Assembly (NCBI GenBank): GCA_024274695.1 | Contig: JAJSAI010000010.1 | Span: forward strand, 1 to 40,653 | Direction of reading: 5' to 3' | DNA length: 40,653 nucleotides | Source of the DNA: an archaeon | GTDB taxonomy: Archaea > B1Sed10-29 > JAJSAI01 | Shown: positions 1,611-21,046 of the stretch, piece by piece | Numbering within the stretch: the stretch's first letter is position 1 | How the letters are laid out: every line of letters begins with the position of its first letter | Program-made: the position numbers and the translations under genes | Notes under the pieces: generated by a model | The model's database searches: none | Told to the model about the DNA's origin: nothing | The model's input: the letters and a program-made list of their open reading frames with translations, nothing else

Positions 1611-2567
1611 TCACCACCATGACACGAACGGTTTATACTCTTGCTGTCCGACAAAATGTTTTATCAGCTTGTATAGTTCTATTCTCATAAGACCATAGTA
1701 GGAAACTCTTTTCTTGAGGTTTTTGTGAAGTATTGTCCTTGACAGCTTGTCTTCCATTTCCTTTATTAACAGGGCCTTCCCTTTTTCTGTCAATAGTACT
1801 GCTTTGCCCTCTTTCCTGAAGTGTTCTTCTTTGAATTGTTTTTTCAGGATGAGTTTTAGGACACTCCTGTCCACGATCACCGGCTTGAACACTTCAGAAA
1901 CGTCAAGGGCTAGAGAAAATCTTCTTTCTAAAGGCTCATGCAAGTATGATATCGTAGGGTTTAGTGATGTGGCGTACAAAAGGGTTATTAACTTGGAATA
2001 TAGAAGCATGTTCCCGAAGCTTATTGCCGCGTTTGCCTTGTTCTGCGGGGGCCTCCTGGTCCTTTTTGTTATCCTGTATTCCGTTGGGAGCACTTGGTCT
2101 AATGCGTTGTAATACTTTTCTCTGAAGTTTCCTTCGTACGCCATGAGCTCTTGTACTGTACGGGGAGCAGGATACTCGCACACTATGGTCTTCCCGTACC
2201 TTGAAAGGGTTTTCAGCATGTTTTGCTGTGCTCCCTTGACAAATTTTTCCGCGAGAGCCAGCCTCTTGCGGTGGTCAAGGTAGTGTTCTGCTTGTTTTAT
2301 TGTCAGATATCCTGAAAGGTGGGAGTCTCTTGGATAGTAAGTGCCCTGGTACCCACCATGATAGTTATAGTAGTGTATTATTATGCCTTGTTTTGAGGCA
2401 AGGGAAAGGGCTTGTGAGGATACCGTTATCCTCCCCAGTAGGTGAAGAGAAGTTATCCTGTTTACGGGCAAGCGCTTTTTGCTTCCTTCAGTATATAGCA
2501 CGAGAGTGTTAGCATTTCTTTTCAGCACCCCGTTGTCCAATAGGTAGTAATCGGCCAATGTAATCAC
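1611..2567 (-). CDS. cas1: CRISPR-associated endonuclease Cas1
   Basis: YYLLDNGVLKRNANTLVLY...HYYNYHGGYQGTYYPR...ISFGNMLLYSKLITLLYATSLNPTISYLHEP...LALDVSEVFKPVIVDR are Cas1 motifs. GTG start overlaps the cas4 stop. Confidence 0.97.
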   Translation of the reverse strand: MITLADYYLLDNGVLKRNANTLVLYTEGSKKRLPVNRITSLHLLGRITVSSQALSLASKQGIIIHYYNYHGGYQGTYYPRDSHLSGYLTIKQAEHYLDHRKRLALAEKFVKGAQQNMLKTLSRYGKTIVCEYPAPRTVQELMAYEGNFREKYYNALDQVLPTEYRITKRTRRPPQNKANAAISFGNMLLYSKLITLLYATSLNPTISYLHEPLERRFSLALDVSEVFKPVIVDRSVLKLILKKQFKEEHFRKEGKAVLLTEKGKALLIKEMEDKLSRTILHKNLKKRVSYYGLMRIELYKLIKHFVGQQEYKPFVSWW

Positions 2568-3037
2568 CCGAAGCAGATCTCGTAGTAACTGCAATTCCTA
2601 CAATAGTTCTTTTTCCGTGGCGCGGGAGGGTTTTCCCTTGAAACTATCCGAACAATTTTCTTTAGGGCCTCCTCAAGCTCTTTCCGGTCTTCTCTGGTCA
2701 GGGTTATTGTCTCTGTCTTCTTGTCTTGGTAGTAGTGTATGACCGCTTTTTGCTTTCCTGAGATCATTAGCATGTACTTTGCTTGCATTAGCGCTGCCCT
2801 ACGCATGCTTTTCCTCTTTTTTATCTCATGCAGTTCTTCGCCGAGCATGTCCACAGGGATGTCTCCTATCATGACTTCGTGCTGTTTTCTCTTGAAGGAA
2901 CTCTCGTGTATTGTCTTGCCTGTTTTCACGTTCTCGTGAGAGTGCTCGAGGCATATTCTGTGATGGTAGTACCATAGTTTCGTGTGGCAAATGTAGTAGT
3001 ACGCTATTTCTTCTGAAGTGGGTTGGAGAGAAAGCAA
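2564..3037 (-). CDS. cas4: CRISPR-associated exonuclease Cas4
   Basis: Cas4/RecB-like; C-terminal Cys cluster YCRNCSYYEICFG; N-terminal YYYICHTKLWYYHH; position next to cas1. Confidence 0.93.
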   Translation of the reverse strand: MLSLQPTSEEIAYYYICHTKLWYYHHRICLEHSHENVKTGKTIHESSFKRKQHEVMIGDIPVDMLGEELHEIKKRKSMRRAALMQAKYMLMISGKQKAVIHYYQDKKTETITLTREDRKELEEALKKIVRIVSRENPPAPRKKNYCRNCSYYEICFG

Positions 3038-3984
3038 TTTATCACGCTCGAACTGGGTTTTCTTTTCCGATCAACAGCCATTTTTCTGAGGGTGTTGTAC
3101 AAGTACGTAGGCATCCCTGTTTTCAGGAACAGCAGGAACTGGCTTGAGTACTTTTCGTCTTGCGAGACAGTGTTCAAGAAGGAATATAATTCATGAAATA
3201 CCTTGTGCTCTCCTGCTTCTGGGCTGAAGGCATCTTCCTCTGCGGCCAAGTACTTTACTTGAGATACTTTCTCGAAGTACTCTTTCCAGGGTCCTGACCA
3301 GGTCTTCCTGCAGAACTGGTATCCTTTGTTGCCTTTCTCTAGGACTAGCACGTTGAGATCGAACCCTTCCTGCATGGGCAGTTCAAGGAATGATATCGTG
3401 TGGGCGAGGGTCTTGGCCGTCCTGTCCGAGTAGTATGATGACATGCCAAGCTCTTTCGCTGCCAGGAGCTCGGATGAAGAAATTAGTCTGTTGGGAGAAA
3501 AGAACATGAACTGCGCGAGATTCCCGGATTCTATTATCATTGCGTATTCTTTCACAGCATGGGCTGCGAGTACTGCCAGCATGACAGGAACTTCTTCCCT
3601 TGCATAAGCATCCCCAAAAACCTTGACCGAAATCAACCCTTTTGACAGGGTGGGATCATACTGCATTGGGAACGGGGATGTTTCCTTGCTTCCGCTGGGC
3701 TTCCAGCCGAGAGGGAACTGGCCCGGGTCCTTGAGTGTTTTTTCCGCGAGAGAGTTCATTGCCTTGCTTACGTCTTCTCTCGTCAGATTACTCCATGAGA
3801 TCTCGTACACTATCCCTTTTGGTGCTATGATCAATTCTTCGTCAGGAAACTTTTCCAGTATCCCGTCTACTATTCCGTAGGCGATCCACATGTCAGCGTA
3901 CGGGCCTATTCCCGGGGTGGTGAGCTTGTTGCCCGCGATCTTGAGCCAGTCAAGCCAGTCCTCCTTCTTTTTACTTCTTGGCAT
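3004..3984 (-). CDS. cas8a2: type I-A Cascade large subunit Cas8a2 (Csa4-like)
   Basis: ~326-aa protein between cas3'' and cas4, in the position and size expected for Csa4/Cas8a2; assigned mainly by synteny. Confidence 0.7.
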   Translation of the reverse strand: MPRSKKKEDWLDWLKIAGNKLTTPGIGPYADMWIAYGIVDGILEKFPDEELIIAPKGIVYEISWSNLTREDVSKAMNSLAEKTLKDPGQFPLGWKPSGSKETSPFPMQYDPTLSKGLISVKVFGDAYAREEVPVMLAVLAAHAVKEYAMIIESGNLAQFMFFSPNRLISSSELLAAKELGMSSYYSDRTAKTLAHTISFLELPMQEGFDLNVLVLEKGNKGYQFCRKTWSGPWKEYFEKVSQVKYLAAEEDAFSPEAGEHKVFHELYSFLNTVSQDEKYSSQFLLFLKTGMPTYLYNTLRKMAVDRKRKPSSSVINCFLSNPLQKK

Positions 3985-4723
3985 TCCTTGCCGCCTCCAC
4001 CATCCTGTCAACGTATCTTGTGAAGAAAGGCTTTTTTCCGCCTCTTTCAGAGGCTCCCTTGTAATCGCACAGGACCAGGGGGATCACGAACGGGACCACT
4101 TTGCGATAGTACTCTCTCCTGTAGAACGGGTGGTACCTGGCCATGACCACTAGTCTTGAAAGGTTCCTTGTAACCAATTCCGCTGAAAGCACGGGGAGTT
4201 CAAGTTCTCCTATCTCCCTGCTGAACTCGTTCAGGAACTCCTCCACCTTTTCCTTGCTCGGGTGCCAGGATAGTCTTTCTCCTAGCCTGGTTATTTGATT
4301 ATAGGCTATTGAGGGTGTTAACGCCGGCTGGTTTATGTTCCCGAGCATTCCAAACATGAGTGGCTCGTGATGATGCAGGGTGGTCAGAGAAATTGTTCTT
4401 GCCTCGTCCGGAGTATAATGTCCTGAACTCTCCAGCATCTGGAGCGATACTGCCGCACTCACTAGCTCGTGCCGGTAGAAGGGTATCTTGCCCTTTCCAG
4501 TGTTGTTATCGTGGTATACTCTTGTAAGCTTTCCTAAGTCATGTAGTACTATCGCGGTTTTCAGGATTTTCTCTGGGTCAAGCCCGGTTACTTTTTTTAT
4601 TCTGTTCTCGTACCTTGGCAGAATCTCTTTCATCGCCTTTAGCATCAGGCGAACATGGTCCGTCATGCTCTGGGCGCATGCCCCGTTCTTATCATAGTAA
4701 GCGCACGGCTGCAATTCAATCAC
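3971..4723 (-). CDS. cas3'': Cas3'' HD nuclease
   Basis: HD motifs: MTDHVRLMLKAM, TAIVLHDLGKLTRVYHD, FYRHELVSA, LHHHEPL. Confidence 0.92.
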   Translation of the reverse strand: MIELQPCAYYDKNGACAQSMTDHVRLMLKAMKEILPRYENRIKKVTGLDPEKILKTAIVLHDLGKLTRVYHDNNTGKGKIPFYRHELVSAAVSLQMLESSGHYTPDEARTISLTTLHHHEPLMFGMLGNINQPALTPSIAYNQITRLGERLSWHPSKEKVEEFLNEFSREIGELELPVLSAELVTRNLSRLVVMARYHPFYRREYYRKVVPFVIPLVLCDYKGASERGGKKPFFTRYVDRMVEAARNAKK

Positions 4724-6392
4724 CTTCTAACCCGATCTCAGGATCATATGTCTCGCTTTTTATCGCGTAGACCCCTCCTTCAACCACGTACCCCCTAAAA
4801 TCTTTTTTCACGTAAACTGTCCTCCCTGTATCCTCTTGTTTTTCTGGAACCAACTGGAAGGAGATAATGTTCTTGAGGGAATCTATCCTTTTCCCGTACA
4901 CGTAAAGCGAGCCTACCGAATAAGGCAAGCTCTTCTCCAGAACCCTTTCTGGACTAATAGAATACTCTTGTTCTTTTTCTGCTTCTTTTTCCAGGGGAAC
5001 CAGTGTCACGTAGTATCCTAGTCTTGCCTTGTAGGGCACGGCTGTTGGAGGAGAGGATAAAAGCATTAGGCCGTGCAAGTACTCTGTCGCGCTGCGTGCA
5101 TAGCTCCAAGCAGGGCCTCCCTTTCCCGTTTTTTTCGGATCATAGTCTTTGTATTTTTCGTCAATAAATTCTTGGGCTTTCCTGTTGTCTCTTAATGCCT
5201 TTTCTATCTTCAGCGTATCGTCCTGGGAAAGTTTTTTCACGAGGTTCTTAGGGTAAGGGACGTTCTTGGAATGATTGAGGATTGTTGCCATTCCTTCAGT
5301 ACCCGGTCTCCGGGCACACCTCCCGATCCTTTGTATTAGGGCATCAGCGGGACAGTTTTCTGTCACGACCAGCGAAACGTCAGGGAGGTCCAGACCCGCT
5401 TCAACCACCTGGGTCGCGATTATCATCTTGGCAGTGTTAAGCTCTTCTTCTTTCTTTTGTCTGTCCTCGTGCGTGAACTTCCCGTGAACTAGCAGGACAC
5501 TATCATCACCAAACAAACTCTTTATGCTCTGGTATGCTTCCACTGCCCTAGAAACAGTGTTAAAGACGAACAGGACTTTACCTTCTCCAGCTTCTTCGGT
5601 CACTTCCTTGAAAAAAGCTGTTGCTTTCTTTGGCTTCTTCAGAGTCTTAGGATCCCACTTCTCGAGTCTGACTTTGATTTTGCCTCTTTCTGGTTTCCTG
5701 TGATCAGATTTTCTCGGACTCTCTTCCAGGACCCCCTCTTTTACTTTCTCGAACATAAGTTCTTCGAACTTTGATGGGATAGTAGCACTCATCACGATCA
5801 TTGGAACCCCTAGTTTTCTGTTAACATGATGTATCACTGTACCGAGCAGTCTCGGCAGGTAGGCGAACTCGTCCTGGAGCATTTGAACTTCGTCAAACAC
5901 GACAAGACTTGTGGATGTTATGCTGGCGGGCATTGTGAATCTCCGTGAAACCGTTCTTCTTGCCCCGAGAGAGTAAGCGAAAGAGTCCCAGGTTGTTATG
6001 TTCACGAGCCCGGAGTACATCGGTTTTTCCATGATGTGCCCGTAGTCTACCAGCACTTGCTCTTGAGCGAATTCTTCAGCCTTTTTCTTGTCCCAGCCGC
6101 TTTCTTCGAGCAGGCTTGAGAACAGTCTGACTATCCTCTGCCTCTGCACGTTCACCAGGCTCTTGTTCGGGAGCACATAAATGACGCTGGAAAATGGATA
6201 TTCTCCCTGAGAATAGGGGCAAAGCAGGCTGAACAATGCGGCTTCTGTCTTGCCTCCCGCAGTCGGGGCTATGATCTTGAGTATTTTGGGCTCTTTTTCT
6301 TGGGCCATGCTGTCTATCTTTTCCCATACTCTAACCTGGTAATCGTAGGGTCCTGACCCAACAATTCTATTGAACACCTTCACTCTACCCAT
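4716..6392 (-). CDS. cas3': Cas3' superfamily 2 helicase
   Basis: Walker A APTAGGKTEAAL, Walker B VVFDEVQ, motif III MSATIP, motif VI QRIGRCAR. Confidence 0.95.
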   Translation of the reverse strand: MGRVKVFNRIVGSGPYDYQVRVWEKIDSMAQEKEPKILKIIAPTAGGKTEAALFSLLCPYSQGEYPFSSVIYVLPNKSLVNVQRQRIVRLFSSLLEESGWDKKKAEEFAQEQVLVDYGHIMEKPMYSGLVNITTWDSFAYSLGARRTVSRRFTMPASITSTSLVVFDEVQMLQDEFAYLPRLLGTVIHHVNRKLGVPMIVMSATIPSKFEELMFEKVKEGVLEESPRKSDHRKPERGKIKVRLEKWDPKTLKKPKKATAFFKEVTEEAGEGKVLFVFNTVSRAVEAYQSIKSLFGDDSVLLVHGKFTHEDRQKKEEELNTAKMIIATQVVEAGLDLPDVSLVVTENCPADALIQRIGRCARRPGTEGMATILNHSKNVPYPKNLVKKLSQDDTLKIEKALRDNRKAQEFIDEKYKDYDPKKTGKGGPAWSYARSATEYLHGLMLLSSPPTAVPYKARLGYYVTLVPLEKEAEKEQEYSISPERVLEKSLPYSVGSLYVYGKRIDSLKNIISFQLVPEKQEDTGRTVYVKKDFRGYVVEGGVYAIKSETYDPEIGLEGD

Positions 6393-7144
6393 CCTATCAC
6401 ATGCTTCTTGCCCTCAATGCTGACCTTCGTTCCTCTGACAACATCATCGGAGAACTCTATTGTCTTGTGAGCGTAAGAGTTCCTTCCCATTATGCGAAGG
6501 GGGAGAATAAAGTTCCTGAGGTTGCTCCCGTAATCTTTTTTTGACCAGCCGCTGGAGGAAGGGAAGACTTCTGTGAGGTAGGATCCCTTGAGAAGGGACC
6601 ATGCTTTCCCTGTATCGTGTACCGGAACATCGGATTGTCCGTACTCTCCGATGTTGACATCCTCATAAAACCATGCCCTGGTCAAGGTGAACAGGCTCTC
6701 CGTGTCCCCGAGTCTCACGATATTATCTATTCTTACCTTCTCCTTCAGGAAAGCGTACACGTAAAGCTTTTTAGAATAAGCGTATTCCTTGAGCAAAGCG
6801 TCTTCCCTCTCAAATCCTTTTGTGTCTGATCTTAAGGGCAATGCTCTTTTGAGAACGAATCTGTTGACCACCATCCGGTTCTCGCTCTTGCCAAGGAACG
6901 CTCCGCACAAGGGAATGCCTTCCCTGCGCTCCACAATTTCTTCTGCTTGGCTTATTGCATTCTCTGAGATTTTTTGCAGACTGTTTCCAGTTGGGGCTAT
7001 TTCTCCTGAGATGACAAGAGCCCTGGCTATCGCCCCGAGTACTGTTACTGGCGGGGGCAACAGCCAGGTTCTCTGCACCTTTACTGACTCAAGCGGCCTG
7101 ACCGAAAACAACGGGCCCCTGAGCTCTGCCACGAACAAGTGCAC
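6380..7144 (-). CDS. cas5: CRISPR-associated Cas5 (type I-A)
   Basis: N-terminal MHLFVAELRGPLFSVRPLESVKVQRTWLLPPPVTVLGAIARAL is Cas5-like; lies between cas7 and cas3'. Confidence 0.88.
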   Translation of the reverse strand: MHLFVAELRGPLFSVRPLESVKVQRTWLLPPPVTVLGAIARALVISGEIAPTGNSLQKISENAISQAEEIVERREGIPLCGAFLGKSENRMVVNRFVLKRALPLRSDTKGFEREDALLKEYAYSKKLYVYAFLKEKVRIDNIVRLGDTESLFTLTRAWFYEDVNIGEYGQSDVPVHDTGKAWSLLKGSYLTEVFPSSSGWSKKDYGSNLRNFILPLRIMGRNSYAHKTIEFSDDVVRGTKVSIEGKKHVIGWVE

Positions 7145-7150
7145 CTGAGC

Positions 7151-8113
7151 TCACTCTCCAAGGAATTCGTCCAGGTCCTTGGTGTCGGTTACCTTCTCGG
7201 CTTCCTTGAACAACCTGTCGTTCTCCTGTTTGTACTCCTTGTAGTGGGCTGAGACAGGGTTAGGCAACAGCCTGTCGCCCTTGACCCCGTACACTTCCGT
7301 TAATTTCATTATCGGGAGAGCTCTGGCCTGGCTTGCTCCGAACCTCCCGCGCAGCACATCCTTTATCGCGAGCAGTAAGGCCCTGCGCCTTAGGCCTGCT
7401 TCTTTTTCGTCGATCACTTTCTCGCCTGCTGACGTGACCCCTATCCTGTCAAGCTCCGCGATTATGAGGAATGAGTATTCTGCTGAAGAATATTCTCTCT
7501 CGAATAACATCATGGCAGTACCAAGCTCTTCTCCGGCAGACTCCTGCTCTTCTTCAGAAGACTTGCTTTTCTTTTTCTTTCCCTTGCCTATCTTGCCGGT
7601 CTCATCCACGTCAACCCTGTTATGGGTGACTGCGAAGGAAAGCTGTCCCTCGTCATACTCCTGCATTATCTCTTCAAGAAAGTCTTCAGGAGGGATAAGG
7701 AAAGAGGTTTTCAGGACGGATTCTCTCCTTAGCCCAACGTTCGGGACCAGGAACCCGAAAACGTCGCAGTCAGCGTACGCTTTCACAAGACTTTTTTCCT
7801 CCAAGTTCATGCCCTTCAGATCGTCCTCGTTATTACTCTGGAACCTGACCGCGTTGTACCTTCTGGCCCTCTTGCTCAGGTTTTTTCCTCCCAAGCTCGT
7901 GTAATGGTCGACGAAGGCCCTGAATATCCAGTGCCTGAGCATGTTCCCTGAGATTACTGGGACAGAGACTATCTTGTAACCGTCTCCCTTCTTCACCACT
8001 ATGTTGGCTCTCGTGATCTCGTTATAGTTTGAGCCTGCTCCTCCGGCAGTGTTCAGGGACGCCACGTTTATGAGCATCCTGCCTGTTATTCCAATGAACC
8101 CGGCCTCCTTCAT
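7151..8113 (-). CDS. cas7: CRISPR-associated Cas7 (Csa2/DevR-like backbone subunit)
   Basis: ITGRMLINVASLNTAGGAGSNYNEITRANIVVKKGDGYKIVSVPVISGNMLRHWIFRAF is the Cas7/DevR N-terminus. Confidence 0.94.
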   Translation of the reverse strand: MKEAGFIGITGRMLINVASLNTAGGAGSNYNEITRANIVVKKGDGYKIVSVPVISGNMLRHWIFRAFVDHYTSLGGKNLSKRARRYNAVRFQSNNEDDLKGMNLEEKSLVKAYADCDVFGFLVPNVGLRRESVLKTSFLIPPEDFLEEIMQEYDEGQLSFAVTHNRVDVDETGKIGKGKKKKSKSSEEEQESAGEELGTAMMLFEREYSSAEYSFLIIAELDRIGVTSAGEKVIDEKEAGLRRRALLLAIKDVLRGRFGASQARALPIMKLTEVYGVKGDRLLPNPVSAHYKEYKQENDRLFKEAEKVTDTKDLDEFLGE

Positions 8114-8445
8114 TCTTCATCACCTTCCCTACTCTTTTTTGATCCATGGTACGATAGCGCGAAGAGCCCTATGACCGGCGCGAGCACGCGCACTTTTCTC
8201 TTGTCACAGTCCCCTCCATTCAAGAATTTTTCCAGGGTTTCCAAGTGCTTTTCGTTAGGAGAATAGTTAGTGTGGGCCATTCTCGCTATTCTGACAGCAT
8301 GATACAAATTAGACCAGAGCTCTTGACATGTAGTGCTTCTGGCAATCCTGTCTACGGCAGAAAGCTTCATGTTCTTGTCACTCCAGACTAAAACGCTTAT
8401 GTACTCTCCTATCCCCCTAGCAGCCTCCAGAACCTCTTTTTCCAT
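8110..8445 (-). CDS. csa5: type I-A small subunit Csa5-like
   Basis: Small protein overlapping the cas7 start and first in the cas operon; the I-A small subunit position. Confidence 0.7.
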   Translation of the reverse strand: MEKEVLEAARGIGEYISVLVWSDKNMKLSAVDRIARSTTCQELWSNLYHAVRIARMAHTNYSPNEKHLETLEKFLNGGDCDKRKVRVLAPVIGLFALSYHGSKKSREGDEE

Positions 8446-8507
8446 GAGAACTCACCCAGTATATGGTGAACAAAAACATTTAAAAACTTTACTGAGGTAG
8501 TTAATAT

Positions 8508-8524
8508 TTAACATTAAATGTTAA
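8508..8524. promoter_or_regulatory. palindrome TTAACATT-A-AATGTTAA abutting the csa3 start; candidate operator in the divergent csa5/csa3 promoter
   Basis: Perfect 8-bp inverted repeat with 1-nt spacer ending one base before the csa3 start; a TTTAAAAAC TATA-like element lies upstream. Confidence 0.6.
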
Positions 8525-9151
8525 GTGATGCTCATGTACTACCATATAGTTAATGTGGGATTCCACCATTCTCACGTTCTCCCCCCAGTGACCAGGTTCG
8601 GAGCGGAAAAGGTCGTACTAGTTTACTCTCTGAGGGATCCGGAGTACATGAGCAAAAAAGAGGCTGAAAAGAGGATCAAGGAAAGTCTGAAGAAAGCTGG
8701 GGAACTCCTGAAAAAAAACAATGTGGACTGCGAGAAAAAAGAATTGTCTGGAAACTTCAAGAGAGACTACTTGACCCTCCGCAGGATAATCAAAAAAGGC
8801 GGAAGCTGTGTCATAAACGTCACGGGCGGAAGGAAAATAACCACTCTGGCAATGGTTTACGCTGCAATGGCCGAGTTCAGCAGCGTGGCAAAAATCATTT
8901 ATGTAGTCAAGGGAAAAATAATAGAACTCCCCAAGCTCGTGCACGAGATAGACCTCACTGAAGGAGAAAAGAACGTGCTGAGAGCAGTACTGGAAGGATA
9001 CACCACCACCAGTCGGATCGCAGTAAAATTAGGCAAAAAAGAGTCGGCAGTGTCACGGAGTCTCAAGCTTCTGGAACGAAAGAAGATCATAAAACGCGAA
9101 AGGAAGGGGAAGCACACGCTGATAATCCCGGAAAACATTATTCTCGGATGA
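8525..9151 (+). CDS. csa3: Csa3-type CARF-wHTH regulator of type I-A CRISPR-Cas
   Basis: CARF-like N-terminus with INVTGGRKITTLAM, C-terminal wHTH LTEGEKNVLRAVLEGYTTTSRIAVKLGKKESAVSRSLKLLERKKII; divergent from the cas operon. Confidence 0.92.
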   Translation: MMLMYYHIVNVGFHHSHVLPPVTRFGAEKVVLVYSLRDPEYMSKKEAEKRIKESLKKAGELLKKNNVDCEKKELSGNFKRDYLTLRRIIKKGGSCVINVTGGRKITTLAMVYAAMAEFSSVAKIIYVVKGKIIELPKLVHEIDLTEGEKNVLRAVLEGYTTTSRIAVKLGKKESAVSRSLKLLERKKIIKRERKGKHTLIIPENIILG

Positions 9152-9839
9152 CCTCAACCATCCCAAAACCTTCTCCTGTGCGCGACCCAAAACCAGCCTG
9201 GTACCCGAACGCGATTAACCCAGGATCTCCCGTAACAACCAGCCTGGAAAACAAGACCCCTTTACAGTATCCTTTCCTTACCCTGTGCCTTTTTATCTTA
9301 ACATCCCCCTCCACCCTAAAGCTTATCCTGCCAGGAGCCATGCCAGTGAAATCATAGTACTTTCTCTGAACGATACCAGAAAGCCGCTCGTAAAACCCGG
9401 GTTCTGTAGGAAGCAAATCCGCATCATTTTTTCTTACCACAACAGGAGAAAGGCTTCTGAAAACAGCCCGTTCACCAAAGTCTGGTTCCTTGAGAATGCT
9501 AACGCTTGAGACTATTGCCTCAAAAGAAGAACCAAGTCTTACAACCTCATGTGCTACGGCATGCGAAAACAACCGGCCTAGCTCAGGATCTGGGGTGGAA
9601 AAAAAGAATCCAGTCCTACCATAACATAGTACTCCACTCTTTACGGGCTTCCTTTTTTCCGAGAGCACGTAAGAAAACGTGAACGGCTTGAACCCAGGAA
9701 GATCATGAACCATCCCAGCCGTGCTTCCAAGCTTTTCCTCTAGCACCCTGTAAATCCATGACATCAGCAGGTACTGGTGATCGTACGGCAGGAGCCGCCT
9801 GCCTCTCAGCGGATCCAACAGCACGTGAAACCTCATCAA
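9138..9839 (-). CDS. cas6: CRISPR RNA endoribonuclease Cas6
   Basis: RAMP fold with C-terminal Gly-rich loop GFGSRTGEGFGMVEV; N-terminal LPYDHQYLLMSWIYRVL. Confidence 0.93.
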   Translation of the reverse strand: MMRFHVLLDPLRGRRLLPYDHQYLLMSWIYRVLEEKLGSTAGMVHDLPGFKPFTFSYVLSEKRKPVKSGVLCYGRTGFFFSTPDPELGRLFSHAVAHEVVRLGSSFEAIVSSVSILKEPDFGERAVFRSLSPVVVRKNDADLLPTEPGFYERLSGIVQRKYYDFTGMAPGRISFRVEGDVKIKRHRVRKGYCKGVLFSRLVVTGDPGLIAFGYQAGFGSRTGEGFGMVEVIRE

Positions 9840-13036: not shown

Positions 13037-13870
13037 ATGAACCCTGGCCCTAGCGTGGAAAAAGAACTGGAAAAACTCAGGGCAGAGCTAAGACTCAGCG
13101 GATTCAGCCAGAACACGGTCGAAACCTACTCCATCCTAGTCAAGGAGTTCCTGCTCAGCACGAGAAAAAACCCAGCAGAGCTGGACGAACAAGACCTTAA
13201 AAAATTTTTGCTACAACTGCTTGACTCGGGTAGGAAAAAAACTACTGCCAACCTGGCCAGGGCAGCGCTCGTGTTCTACTACAGGAACGTGCTCGGGAAG
13301 CAGGTTGAGGTCAAGAGCATAAAAACAGAAAAAAAGATCCCTGAAGTGCTTACCCCGGAAGAGGTTAAAAAATTATTGCAGGCGTGTGACAATCCCTTGC
13401 ACGAGCTGATAATAGAGTTCTTGTACTCTACTGGGGTCAGGCTAAGCGAGCTCGTGAACATGAAAATCAAGGACATTGACTGGCAGGAAGGAATGGGCTG
13501 GGTGAGAGGAGGCAAGGGAGCCAAGGACAGGAGAATCATCCTTTCCAAAAAACTCTTGGAAAAACTAAAAGATTTTGTGAAAGGCAGGAACCCCGACGAG
13601 TACCTGTTCCCAGGAAGAACAGGAGGCAGGATGAACAAGAGGAACGTTCAAAAAATTGTTGCAAGAGCAGCGAGGAAGGCTGGGATCACGAAGAACGTGC
13701 ACCCCCACACGCTTCGCCACTCGTTTGCAACGCACCTGCTGCAAGAGGGCACGGACATCCGAATAATCCAAGAGCTGCTGGGCCACTCGAACCTGAACAC
13801 CACCCAGATCTACACTCACGTGAGCACCCAGGACCTCAAGAAAATCAGGAACCCGCTGGACGAGTTATGA
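13037..13870 (+). CDS. xerA: XerA/XerC-D type tyrosine recombinase
   Basis: STGVRLSELVNMKIKDID, HTLRHSFATHLLQEGTDIRIIQELLGHSNLNTTQIYTHVS: R..HxxR..H..Y catalytic motifs. Confidence 0.93.
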   Translation: MNPGPSVEKELEKLRAELRLSGFSQNTVETYSILVKEFLLSTRKNPAELDEQDLKKFLLQLLDSGRKKTTANLARAALVFYYRNVLGKQVEVKSIKTEKKIPEVLTPEEVKKLLQACDNPLHELIIEFLYSTGVRLSELVNMKIKDIDWQEGMGWVRGGKGAKDRRIILSKKLLEKLKDFVKGRNPDEYLFPGRTGGRMNKRNVQKIVARAARKAGITKNVHPHTLRHSFATHLLQEGTDIRIIQELLGHSNLNTTQIYTHVSTQDLKKIRNPLDEL

Positions 13871-17152: not shown

Positions 17153-17755
17153 TCATTCCACGGAGTCAAGCTTTTTCAGGTTAAGCTCAAGATAACCGCC
17201 ACCCGGCTTCTTGTACACTCCCCCTCCAATGACCCTCGTTTTTTCAGGGATCTCAGGCAGTCCTGCCAGGTACTTCACCATCTTTATCGCATGCCGCCCG
17301 GGACCGAAGGCGTTCGGTACGTTATCGTAAACCTCAAAACCGAGATCAGAAAAGGTCTTTAGCATGTTTGGAGCCCTTTCAGGAACCAGCACGTACAGCT
17401 TCTGGCAGGGAATGTAATCAAACGCCTCCTTCAGGAACACGCCCTCTATCTTACCCCTGAGTCGCTTAATAACCGAAAGCATGTCAATGCTCGCTTCATC
17501 CCCTTTCACTCTGACTATCATAAAGCCCACAGGTTCTCCCTCGTCCTCCGCGAGCAGAATAACGTTCGTTCCCTTCATGATCCAGTCAATCAAAGGATAC
17601 CTTGACAACGGCTTCAGACTCTTCCTCCCATCCTTCCTGTGAACAGTTTCAAGAGCCTCAAGGTCGTCAAGAGTCGCTTTTCTCACCCTCACCCGGAACA
17701 CCCTCCAAAACATTATTAGAGTTTCCAACACTTTTTTTCTGGGAGAGTAACTCAC
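17153..17755 (-). CDS. GNAT-family N-acetyltransferase-like
   Basis: VRKATLDDLEALETVHRKDGRKS...VILLAEDEGEPVGFMIVRVKGDEASIDMLSVIKRLRGKIEGVFLKEAF; start uncertain (ATG at 17710 also plausible). Confidence 0.75.
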   Translation of the reverse strand: MSYSPRKKVLETLIMFWRVFRVRVRKATLDDLEALETVHRKDGRKSLKPLSRYPLIDWIMKGTNVILLAEDEGEPVGFMIVRVKGDEASIDMLSVIKRLRGKIEGVFLKEAFDYIPCQKLYVLVPERAPNMLKTFSDLGFEVYDNVPNAFGPGRHAIKMVKYLAGLPEIPEKTRVIGGGVYKKPGGGYLELNLKKLDSVE

Positions 17756-18005
17756 TGGCTTCTTCTAAAATTTTTGCAATCCTCTTGCCCTTGCTCGTGA
17801 GTCTGACCGTCCTTATTCTGCCCACTTGTTCTGTGCGTATTAATCCCACACTCTCAAATTCTTTCAGAATTTTTAGCATGTGAGGATATGTGGTGTCAGT
17901 GTGCTTGCACAAGACATTGGCATACCACACTCGCGAGTCGTCATTCAAAGAAATAAGCGTACGGAAAGGCTTTTCCTTAAAAATTATCATGTCTTTTTCA
18001 GGCAT
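17667..18005 (-). CDS. winged-helix (MarR/ArsR-like) regulator
   Basis: WYANVLCKHTDTTYPHMLKILKEFESVGLIRTEQVGRIRTVRLTSKGKRIAKILEEASELL. Confidence 0.75.
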   Translation of the reverse strand: MPEKDMIIFKEKPFRTLISLNDDSRVWYANVLCKHTDTTYPHMLKILKEFESVGLIRTEQVGRIRTVRLTSKGKRIAKILEEASELLSQKKSVGNSNNVLEGVPGEGEKSDS

Positions 18006-18200
18006 CTTTCTCCCCACTATCTTCGAATTCTTACGCGCATTTTGTGTGCATTCATCCGCACAAAACAAAAAGAAAACAATATATTTAAACGTTTCGGTTT
18101 CATGCAATCCATCAGAAAATATATCTTGAATAATATAAACAATAAAAAATAAAGTTAATTATAGGAAGTGAAACATCAGAAGTATTAACTTTTGTTTATA

Positions 18201-18735
18201 CTCACGTGAGGATAACGTGAGAGAAATTCGTACAAAATTTTTGCAATAGCATCGGTGGTGGAAGCAAATGGGAATGGTAATGGACTGAAGGGTGAAGAAG
18301 ATAGGAGCACAGAAGGTTCAAAAAATGTGAGAGATCTGACAGTCTGGTTTCACAAAGAGATAAATGCTTTGCGCCTTGAAAGGAAGCATAACCCCATCAA
18401 ACGCTGAAAAAAGACCTGAACAAACTTGCATTCATTGTGAGAGTTTTCCTATTTTAAGAAAAACCAAAAAGAGGCGGGAAAAAAGTCCAGTGTGTTTTAA
18501 AAATTATTACAAAATTTGTGAGAGAACGTGGGAGGGACGGAGAAAAGAAGAGATGTGAGAGAAAAAGGAGTGAGGAGGTGTGAGAAGAAGACCGCGCAGG
18601 TCCACGATACAACAGTTCGTGAGAGATCATGAAGACCAGCGCGCATTACAGCCGTTAGTGTGAGAAACTCTGCTAAAAACGTGAGGGTTCTAAGCCAAGC
18701 GCTGGCGTTGTAGAATAGCCGGAATGTGTGAGAAA
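18201..18735 (+). repeat. cluster of ~10 co-oriented GTGAG(A/G) boxes (consensus GTGAGAGA)
   Basis: Starts at 18217, 18327, 18437, 18518, 18555, 18580, 18619, 18660, 18681, 18728; first box preceded by palindrome CTCACGTGAG (18201-18210). Noncoding in both strands. Confidence 0.75.
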
Positions 18736-18780
18736 AACATTCAAGTCTAACGCGCATTCTAGAAAGTGCAGGAGACGGGC

Positions 18781-19082
18781 TAGTCAAACGCTTAGTCAGA
18801 CTAATCATGCTCAAAAAAGTGTTAGTCAGGGGATTAGTCAGAACCTTAGTCAGCTTAGTCATGTTAGTCAAGGGTTAGTCAAACGCTTAGTCAACTTAGT
18901 CACGAGCGTAGTCAAAAGCTTAGTCAGCTTAGACACGGCTTAGTCATGACTAATAGTCAAACGGTCTTGACTAAGGTGCTTTTGACTAAGCTAAAGCAAA
19001 AAATGACACACGTGGGCTTAGTCAGAGGGTTAGTCAAGTTTGACTAAACCCTTAGTCAAGGTTTAGTCATGACTAATAGTCA
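18781..19082. repeat. iteron-like array of TTAGTCA/TGACTAA heptamers
   Basis: 15 exact TTAGTCA (18792,18822,18834,18846,18855,18864,18875,18887,18896,18920,18940,19018,19030,19052,19063), 5 TGACTAA (18947,18968,18983,19041,19070) plus near-matches; 20-bp TTAGTCATGACTAATAGTCA occurs twice (18940, 19063). Confidence 0.95.
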
Positions 19083-19135
19083 GGTTTAAATACCTGTAAA
19101 GCCTTGTCTAACACGAAGTAAGGGGGTCTTAGACC

Positions 19136-20302
19136 ATGTGGTTCAAGACGTACGGTTTCAAAGAAAATCCGTTCAAGATAACACCAAAGCCAGAGTATAT
19201 GGTTGGATACGAATCGCAGGAGATCCAGGCAAAAGAAGCGATCACAAGCGGAGATATTATTGTAATAACAGGGCCAACAGGGTATGGCAAGACAACCTTG
19301 CTCAGGAAACTGAAAAACTGGGCAGCCAGACAAGGTTACAAGACTGTGTACTTTGACTGCACATATTCTCCGAGTGATCAGGTTAATTTCAGGGAACTGC
19401 TGAGCGTGAAAACGTTCTTTGGGCTCAGGAAAAGGCTTCCTGTGAAAAAGGACAGGATCGTGCTCTTCCTTGACGAAGTACAAAGACTCGGGAAGGACAA
19501 ACTGGAAGAACTCAAGTACTACTATGACTCTGAAAGAATACACTCCATCGTAATGTCTACCATAAGCCACTTGAACGTGCACGAGAGCATGAGAACAAGA
19601 GTGGCAGAAACGGTAAAACTGTGCAACCTGACTGCACACGACCTGCGTTCCATGATCCTAAAGAGGGTTGAAAAAGGCAAGAACCCGTTCTCTCCTGACG
19701 GGATAGAAGAAATCGTGCTCTTGTCAGGAAACAACCCGAGAAGTGTTCTAATAAACGCTGAGAAGGTGTGCAAGGTCTTGCACACTTCATTCCCAGAGGG
19801 TAATATTGGAAGAGAAGAGGTTTTATACGTGCTAAAGGGGGAAAAAACGGGCTGGTACAAACCTGTGGAAGTAAAAGAGATCGTTTCCGAGGAGCGTGAA
19901 AAAGGAGATAGTGTGCAGGATACTGCACAGGAAGCCCCTGTTTTCCCTGATTCTCTGGATTCAGAAAAACCTGCTGTTAAAGCCGAGAATACGAGTGTTT
20001 CAGCGCAGCAGGATGATCTTGTTTGGGCCTGGGAACTAAAGGACCTCTCACCCCTGCAGAAGAAGATAGTGAAGGTCTTGGCAGAAGCGGGCAGGCCCCT
20101 GTCGTATGAGGAGATCTGCCCTGCTGTGGGAGCAGGAAAGGGGAGTGTGGCGAAACAGCTGAGCAGATTAGCCCTAGTCTCGGACACTGAACTGATGAAC
20201 AAGAAGGGGATCACAGAGCCTGTTGTTTCAAAAATTGTTGCAGACGGGAAGTCTTTGTTCGAGCTCACCGAGAAGTACAGAAAACTTCTAGCGAGAGAGT
20301 GA
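19136..20302 (+). CDS. AAA+ ATPase (ExeA/Orc-like) with C-terminal winged-helix-like domain; candidate initiator/remodeller
   Basis: MWFKTYGFKENPFKITPKPEYMVGYESQ; Walker A GPTGYGKTTLL; Walker B IVLFLDEVQRL; sensor-like STISH; C-terminal LSPLQKKIVKVLAEAGRPLSYEEICPAVGAGKGSVAKQLSRLAL HTH-like. TATA TTTAAATA at 19085-19092. Confidence 0.8.
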   Translation: MWFKTYGFKENPFKITPKPEYMVGYESQEIQAKEAITSGDIIVITGPTGYGKTTLLRKLKNWAARQGYKTVYFDCTYSPSDQVNFRELLSVKTFFGLRKRLPVKKDRIVLFLDEVQRLGKDKLEELKYYYDSERIHSIVMSTISHLNVHESMRTRVAETVKLCNLTAHDLRSMILKRVEKGKNPFSPDGIEEIVLLSGNNPRSVLINAEKVCKVLHTSFPEGNIGREEVLYVLKGEKTGWYKPVEVKEIVSEEREKGDSVQDTAQEAPVFPDSLDSEKPAVKAENTSVSAQQDDLVWAWELKDLSPLQKKIVKVLAEAGRPLSYEEICPAVGAGKGSVAKQLSRLALVSDTELMNKKGITEPVVSKIVADGKSLFELTEKYRKLLARE

Positions 20303-20434: not shown

Positions 20435-21046
20435 GTGAGTCAAAAAGAGTTTGATGAAATTGTTCTAAAATACTGCCAGTTCCCAATACCCAGGACAAGG
20501 TACATGATCCTGGAAGAACTAAAGAAAAACGGGTTCTGGAAGAAAACCCCTGCCAGAAGAGCAGTGTCACTGCTGAACAAAAAGCTTGAACCCCTGAAAG
20601 AAAAGGGGTTACTCCTGGAATATACTGAAAACGATTCAAGATGGAATGAAATGAGAGTACTCTTAAAAAAATATTGCACTGCTCATGGTCTGACAAAACC
20701 GAGAAGAGTGCAAAAAATTTATCAGACTAACTTCTTCTATTCTGGTAGAGAAATGTTCCTCCCTGTTTTAGGAGAACACAATTTCGTGCTAACAGCATTG
20801 TTCAGCAGGTTCAACAGGCCAAAGAACTTTGGCATGAGGGCGCTGAACTTGTTCCTGGCCTACGATCAGGATCCCGGCAGGATGAGGGTTAAAGCGTATA
20901 ATGTTCTTCCAGAAGAGGATGCTGAGGTTCTTGAGAAAGCCCTTGAGGCATCGGCCTGGATTGTTAGAGATTTCGGTCTTCCGTTCAAGCCTGACGTTGA
21001 TAATGCCTTGAGATTCCTTGAGGAGGTCGCAGGACATGGACCCTGA
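20435..21046 (+). CDS. uncharacterised protein
   Basis: 203-aa ORF with GTG start and upstream TTTAA; no recognised motif. Confidence 0.6.
   Translation: MSQKEFDEIVLKYCQFPIPRTRYMILEELKKNGFWKKTPARRAVSLLNKKLEPLKEKGLLLEYTENDSRWNEMRVLLKKYCTAHGLTKPRRVQKIYQTNFFYSGREMFLPVLGEHNFVLTALFSRFNRPKNFGMRALNLFLAYDQDPGRMRVKAYNVLPEEDAEVLEKALEASAWIVRDFGLPFKPDVDNALRFLEEVAGHGP

Follow-up and report, generated by a model that had tools for sequence, protein, structure and literature searches.

What is the function of a dense block of short repeats that runs into the promoter of an AAA+ ATPase gene in an archaeal genome? The block lies within a contig stretch of 40,653 nucleotides (the window). An earlier note on this DNA had proposed that the ATPase, or the product of a nearby wHTH gene, binds the repeats and that the locus is an origin of the chromosome or of an integrated replicon. 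DPANN archaea, in which the ATPase is widespread, make up a large share of archaeal diversity and, to our knowledge, the control of replication and segregation in them is almost unstudied. No published description of this ATPase or array was found among open-licence PMC papers.

The function best supported by sequence comparison is binding of the ATPase to its own array with autoregulation of its gene. The full proposal, which we consider reasonably probable, is that the heptamers are the predicted sites of the downstream ATPase, which would bind them, repress its own promoter and take part in chromosome maintenance, and that a wHTH protein with a second array (GTGAG) would form a separate unit.

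The heptamer array and the ATPase promoter

The array (18780–19082) contains 15 TTAGTCA and five TGACTAA copies, reproducing the exact counts of the earlier note, together with one-mismatch copies (seven within 18780–19111 besides the 20 exact ones). No exact copy in either orientation was found in the rest of the window. When the window was simulated 60 times with an order-2 Markov model, no 7-mer exceeded five copies per 300 bp; the number observed is 20. Between 18822 and 18946 the heptamers follow one another in steps of 9–12 bp (mean 10.7 bp); the spacing near one helical turn that had been noted is thus confirmed.

TTAGTCA occurs 36 times in the whole 825 kb genome (20 copies in the array and 16 scattered) and the reversed control occurs 23 times. 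Since the scattered copies do not exceed the control, the heptamer marks one site; a dispersed regulon was rejected on the same count of lone sites. The pair pattern TTAGTCA-N(1–10)-TTAGTCA was found in the array and nowhere else in the genome.

As claimed earlier, the array reaches the TATA-like element of the ATPase gene, TTTAAATA (19085–19092, + strand), and motif copies in fact flank this element on both sides. The last copy before the promoter (ATAGTCA, 19076–19082) lies 2 bp upstream of it and a one-mismatch copy (TGTCTAA, 19105–19111) lies 12 bp downstream. The same geometry, with different letters, was found in G000 (the window's genome), G005 (DPANN group archaeon RIFCSPHIGHO2_02_FULL_47_15; JAGVWA010000011.1), G015, G135, G160 and G168. 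Its recurrence across lineages is the main ground for proposing autoregulation. The ATPase would bind the heptamers immediately upstream of its own gene through its C-terminal winged helix, would probably assemble cooperatively along one face of the DNA (spacing of about 10.7 bp) and, by occupying sites on either side of its TATA box, would repress its own promoter.

The same promoter geometry favours the main rival reading suggested by these sequences, a pure operator. Here the array would be the autoregulatory operator of an ATPase that regulates transcription, with no role in replication or partition; we rate this as somewhat unlikely. It is opposed by the number of sites, as 10–20 sites across 300–500 bp far exceed the needs of a repressor. 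This excess suggests a role in chromosome maintenance for the autoregulatory ATPase: its nucleoprotein assembly on the array would also serve the control of initiation or the handling of origin-proximal DNA.

Architecture of the ATPase

The ATPase (388 residues; 19136–20302, + strand) was matched to Pfam AAA_22 (7.5e-13). An AlphaFold model (mean pLDDT 75) comprises an AAA+ core and lid, a disordered linker (about 237–298) and a C-terminal winged helix (about 304–388), and resembles Orc/Cdc6 proteins in overall architecture. In VIA-align the model fell among ORC/Cdc6, RFC and RuvB proteins, and some of the alignments, including that to Aeropyrum ORC2, covered its full length. The ORC2 match (Z 17.8, rmsd 4.9, 298 residues) spans residues 4–388. 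RFC and RuvB match the model equally well, so the Orc-like match in architecture is not specific.

The AAA+ and winged-helix architecture of Orc/Cdc6 type proposed earlier is borne out by the structure model and the VIA-align comparison, but membership of the Orc1/Cdc6 family is not: the score against TIGR02928 is 17.4 bits (cut-off 181.3) and two genuine Orc1/Cdc6 genes (385 and 190 bits) lie on another contig of the same genome. The system resembles archaeal Orc1/Cdc6 initiators and their ORB origins in the AAA+ core, lid and C-terminal winged helix, in the repeated sites beside the gene and in the frequent nearness of the ATPase gene to orc1. It differs in the score below the family cut-off, in the presence of two Orc1/Cdc6 proteins already in the genome and in the sites identified, which are short heptamers about 10.7 bp apart and do not look like canonical ORB elements. 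The Orc-like architecture, unlike that of a simple repressor, is a further point against a pure operator.

Residues 1–61 at the N-terminus match the ExeA/TniB-like AAA+ ATPases (TIGR03015) with 39 bits. This score falls well short of the 324.5-bit cut-off, which places the ATPase outside the family, and the C-terminal winged helix replaces the partners of those families. The best Pfam families (AAA_22 and AAA_14) are not those of a ParA-type ATPase, and no plasmid Rep family of the kind expected in an iteron replicon was present among the Pfam and NCBIfam matches.

Repeat motifs and winged helices among relatives

By alignment search, the ATPase was detected in six of the 19 genomes from the window's phylum, a low share that counts against the full proposal; in two further archaeal phyla the counts are 27 of 34 and 102 of 145 genomes. 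Several genomes of the last phylum are Aenigmatarchaeota records (for example, G135 and G139; JAFGAZ010000020.1 and JAFCDY010000004.1, respectively), and within DPANN archaea the ATPase occurs mainly in Aenigmatarchaeota. It is mostly present as a single copy per genome.

Related ATPases have arrays at the equivalent position, but the letters depend on the lineage: TAGTCA in G000 and G005, CGTGTA in G003, CGAGTA in G004 and TGTCA in G015, while most Aenigmatarchaeota have ACGTGAA or similar GTGAA forms. The winged helix changes with them. Identities within motif groups are 52% (G000–G005), 41% (G003–G004, with motifs that differ by a single base) and 62% (G044–G135, ACGTGAA), compared with 18–32% between the TAGTCA, CGWGTA and ACGTGAA groups. 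The winged helix of G015 is 47% identical to that of G000 and 34% to that of G005, and GTCA is common to all three motifs. The AAA+ domains group much as the winged helices do, so the co-change is partly phylogeny; few independent switches were seen, and motif and winged helix could both merely track descent. The wHTH/GTGAG unit is constant in the same genomes and provides an internal control for the change of motif.

These comparisons divide the earlier proposal that either the ATPase or the wHTH protein binds the heptamers. Promoter geometry and the joint change of motif and winged helix favour the ATPase; the constant GTGAG array argues against the wHTH protein. The natural switches of specificity among relatives make protein–DNA recognition directly testable.

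Several lineages retain the ATPase but have weak arrays or none (members of families f42, f47 and f48; for example, loci L036–L039, L049, L052, L193, L194 and L196), so the array is dispensable for some functions of the ATPase. Absence of heptamer clusters from relatives with the ATPase, which the earlier note would have counted against its own proposal, is seen in part. This argues against an array needed by every such chromosome and leaves the pure operator as the main rival.

Where genomes contain the CACGTGAA pair pattern, the ATPase gene is the site of almost every pair. A single pair clearly departs from this, 112 bp upstream of orc1 in G132 (G132:C24:18446-18475), and motif copies are also present in the orc1 promoters of G137 and G196 (L138 and L143). 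These sites suggest that the ATPase may also regulate orc1 in these three genomes of the Aenigmatarchaeota phylum, and they again favour a pure operator. Motif copies were also observed inside the ATPase gene, besides the promoter array, in G005 (L018:1895-1960) and G196 (L124:10024-10265).

The second unit and the chromosomal setting

A second array, of 12 GTGAG copies in a single orientation (18206–18732, + strand; nine are GTGAGA), precedes the heptamers. The expected number is 0.95 and the maximum in 300 simulations was four; all copies observed are on the + strand. Next to it is a 120 bp stretch (18079–18198) with 78% AT (mean 49%), the AT-richest of the window, which is unwinding-element-like or promoter-like DNA. 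The array and the AT-rich stretch had been overlooked in the earlier note. The adjoining gene (17667–18005, − strand) encodes the wHTH protein, of 112 residues, with a MarR/PadR-like fold in its structure model.

Beside the wHTH gene in the window's order is the gene of a GNAT-like protein (17153–17755, − strand; 29% identity to its G003 neighbour, E 1e-22). A gene for an uncharacterised 203-residue protein (20435–21046, + strand; 35% identity to its G003 neighbour, E 1e-30) is likewise conserved in the order, downstream of the ATPase. In relatives in the order a PRC-barrel gene lies between the ATPase gene and this one; it is absent from that position in G000. The block GNAT, wHTH, AT-rich stretch, GTGAG array, motif array, ATPase, (PRC-barrel), uncharacterised protein is shared by G000, G003, G004 and G005, and the gene order is maintained across four families of the order.

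In most genomes of the class the DNA preceding the wHTH gene is enriched in GTGAG, with CTCAC always on the wHTH coding strand, and the enrichment is also present where no full-length ATPase was detected (L094, L096 and L098–L101). Immediately before the wHTH gene, the AT-rich stretch ranks first to third in AT among the DNA examined in nine genomes (G003, G004, G008, G009, G011, G012, G014, G016 and G017). Because the unit persists without a detected ATPase, the heptamers are probably not bound by the wHTH protein. Co-occurrence suggests the wHTH protein as the partner of the GTGAG array and the ATPase as that of the heptamers. The wHTH protein, the GTGAG array and the AT-rich stretch would form a separate, older unit alongside, in which a second protein–site pair (wHTH and GTGAG) is predicted.

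The conserved block bears on whether the locus is an integrated plasmid or another mobile replicon with iterons. Like iteron-controlled plasmid replicons, it has dense direct repeats near one helical turn that abut the gene's own promoter, and a tyrosine recombinase gene is present at 13037–13870. The recombinase, however, is of the archaeal chromosomal XerA type, the gene is that of a conserved chromosomal AAA+ ATPase rather than a RepA-type initiator and the motif letters are lineage-dependent. The integrated replicon of the earlier note was rejected on conserved synteny in four families and on the mostly single ATPase copy per genome across phyla; we regard it as highly improbable.

The XerA-type recombinase scores 276 bits against NF040815 (cut-off 220) and its gene is 5 kb from the arrays.

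In relatives the ATPase gene sits among replication genes, often with orc1/cdc6 at 0.3–40 kb and with radA- and RPA-like genes adjacent to it. In Aenigmatarchaeota it adjoins ThpR-like, PRC-barrel, RadA-like, RPA-like and wHTH genes, with orc1 and replicative polymerase genes near; neighbour names except PRC-barrel, wHTH and Orc1 were assigned from sequence by eye, not by family search. Where the ATPase and orc1 share a contig, 41 of 44 pairs are within 60 kb (median 17 kb). A pair closer than 30 kb was found in ten of 23 families, where at most 7–12% were expected under a uniform null (binomial P of 1e-6 to 2e-4). If both genes are required to share a contig, a condition that is over-strict for short contigs, the linkage is borderline (P = 0.052). 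The distance is 41 kb in G003 and 34 kb in G004, and the two genes are on different contigs in G000. They are far apart in G196 (main copy), G210 and G229.

The single contig of G196 (C1) carries the ATPase/RadA-like/RPA-like cluster twice (L170 and L124, at 255 and 461 kb), one of them near orc1.

The replication genes around the ATPase speak against a pure operator, and the frequent nearness to orc1/cdc6 and to radA- and RPA-like genes makes initiator-like or partition-like work by the ATPase plausible. In a chromosomal origin, the AT-rich stretch would be the unwinding element and the GTGAG and TTAGTCA repeats the initiator boxes of the wHTH protein and the ATPase. In G000, G003, G004 and G005 a single intergenic region brings together the AT-rich stretch, both arrays and the ATPase, which fits this, as do the AT-rank of the stretch, which in most of the class members tested is among the AT-richest DNA of the contig, and the orc1 distances in G003 and G004. 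An origin is nevertheless unlikely. The G003 contig has no GC-skew minimum at the locus, and in G196 the turn in skew is close to orc1 rather than at the array copy. Skew is weak or driven by gene strand in G133, G196, G184 (C2) and G003 (C1) and does not support an origin at the array, so the origin claimed earlier is unproven. In addition, a canonical Orc1/Cdc6 is present in the genome, arrays and ATPase are not universal and archaeal genes are commonly preceded by AT-rich DNA.

For partition, in which the array would be centromere-like and the bound ATPase, possibly with the wHTH and PRC-barrel proteins, would position origin-proximal DNA, the probability is lower still. One dense array per genome near orc1 is consistent with it, as is the PRC-barrel gene that adjoins the ATPase in three phyla, and the wHTH model resembles the archaeal plasmid centromere-binding AspA and TubR. 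These two stand among many MarR/PadR folds, however, and the likeness (E 4e-4 for TubR) is generic; the window's genome has no PRC-barrel gene at the locus, and the ATPase is of AAA_22 type, not ParA- or tubulin-like. The partner of the wHTH protein is thus not the tubulin-like GTPase of a TubZRC-type system. In SegAB and pNOB8-type partition a DNA-binding protein likewise has sites upstream of its own cassette, as for SegB upstream of segAB (PMC12284271). Unlike here, SegA is a ParA orthologue and SegB is a ribbon-helix-helix protein with scattered palindromes, in place of an AAA_22 ATPase with one dense array.

An Orc-shaped ATPase on a lineage-specific array, combined with the wHTH/GTGAG/AT-rich pair, could form a new DPANN maintenance system that acts as an auxiliary origin or centromere; we put this forward tentatively, as a possibility that we do not favour. 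The ATPase and its array are in any case a specific, testable pair, widespread in at least one phylum and near orc1/cdc6 in many genomes.

Elsewhere in the window, a CRISPR array and type I-A cas genes were observed (4–1253 and 1611–9839), with 19 repeats at a period of about 67 bp. The cas set comprises cas1, cas4, csa4-like, cas3 parts, cas5a, csa2, cas6 and a CARF regulator.
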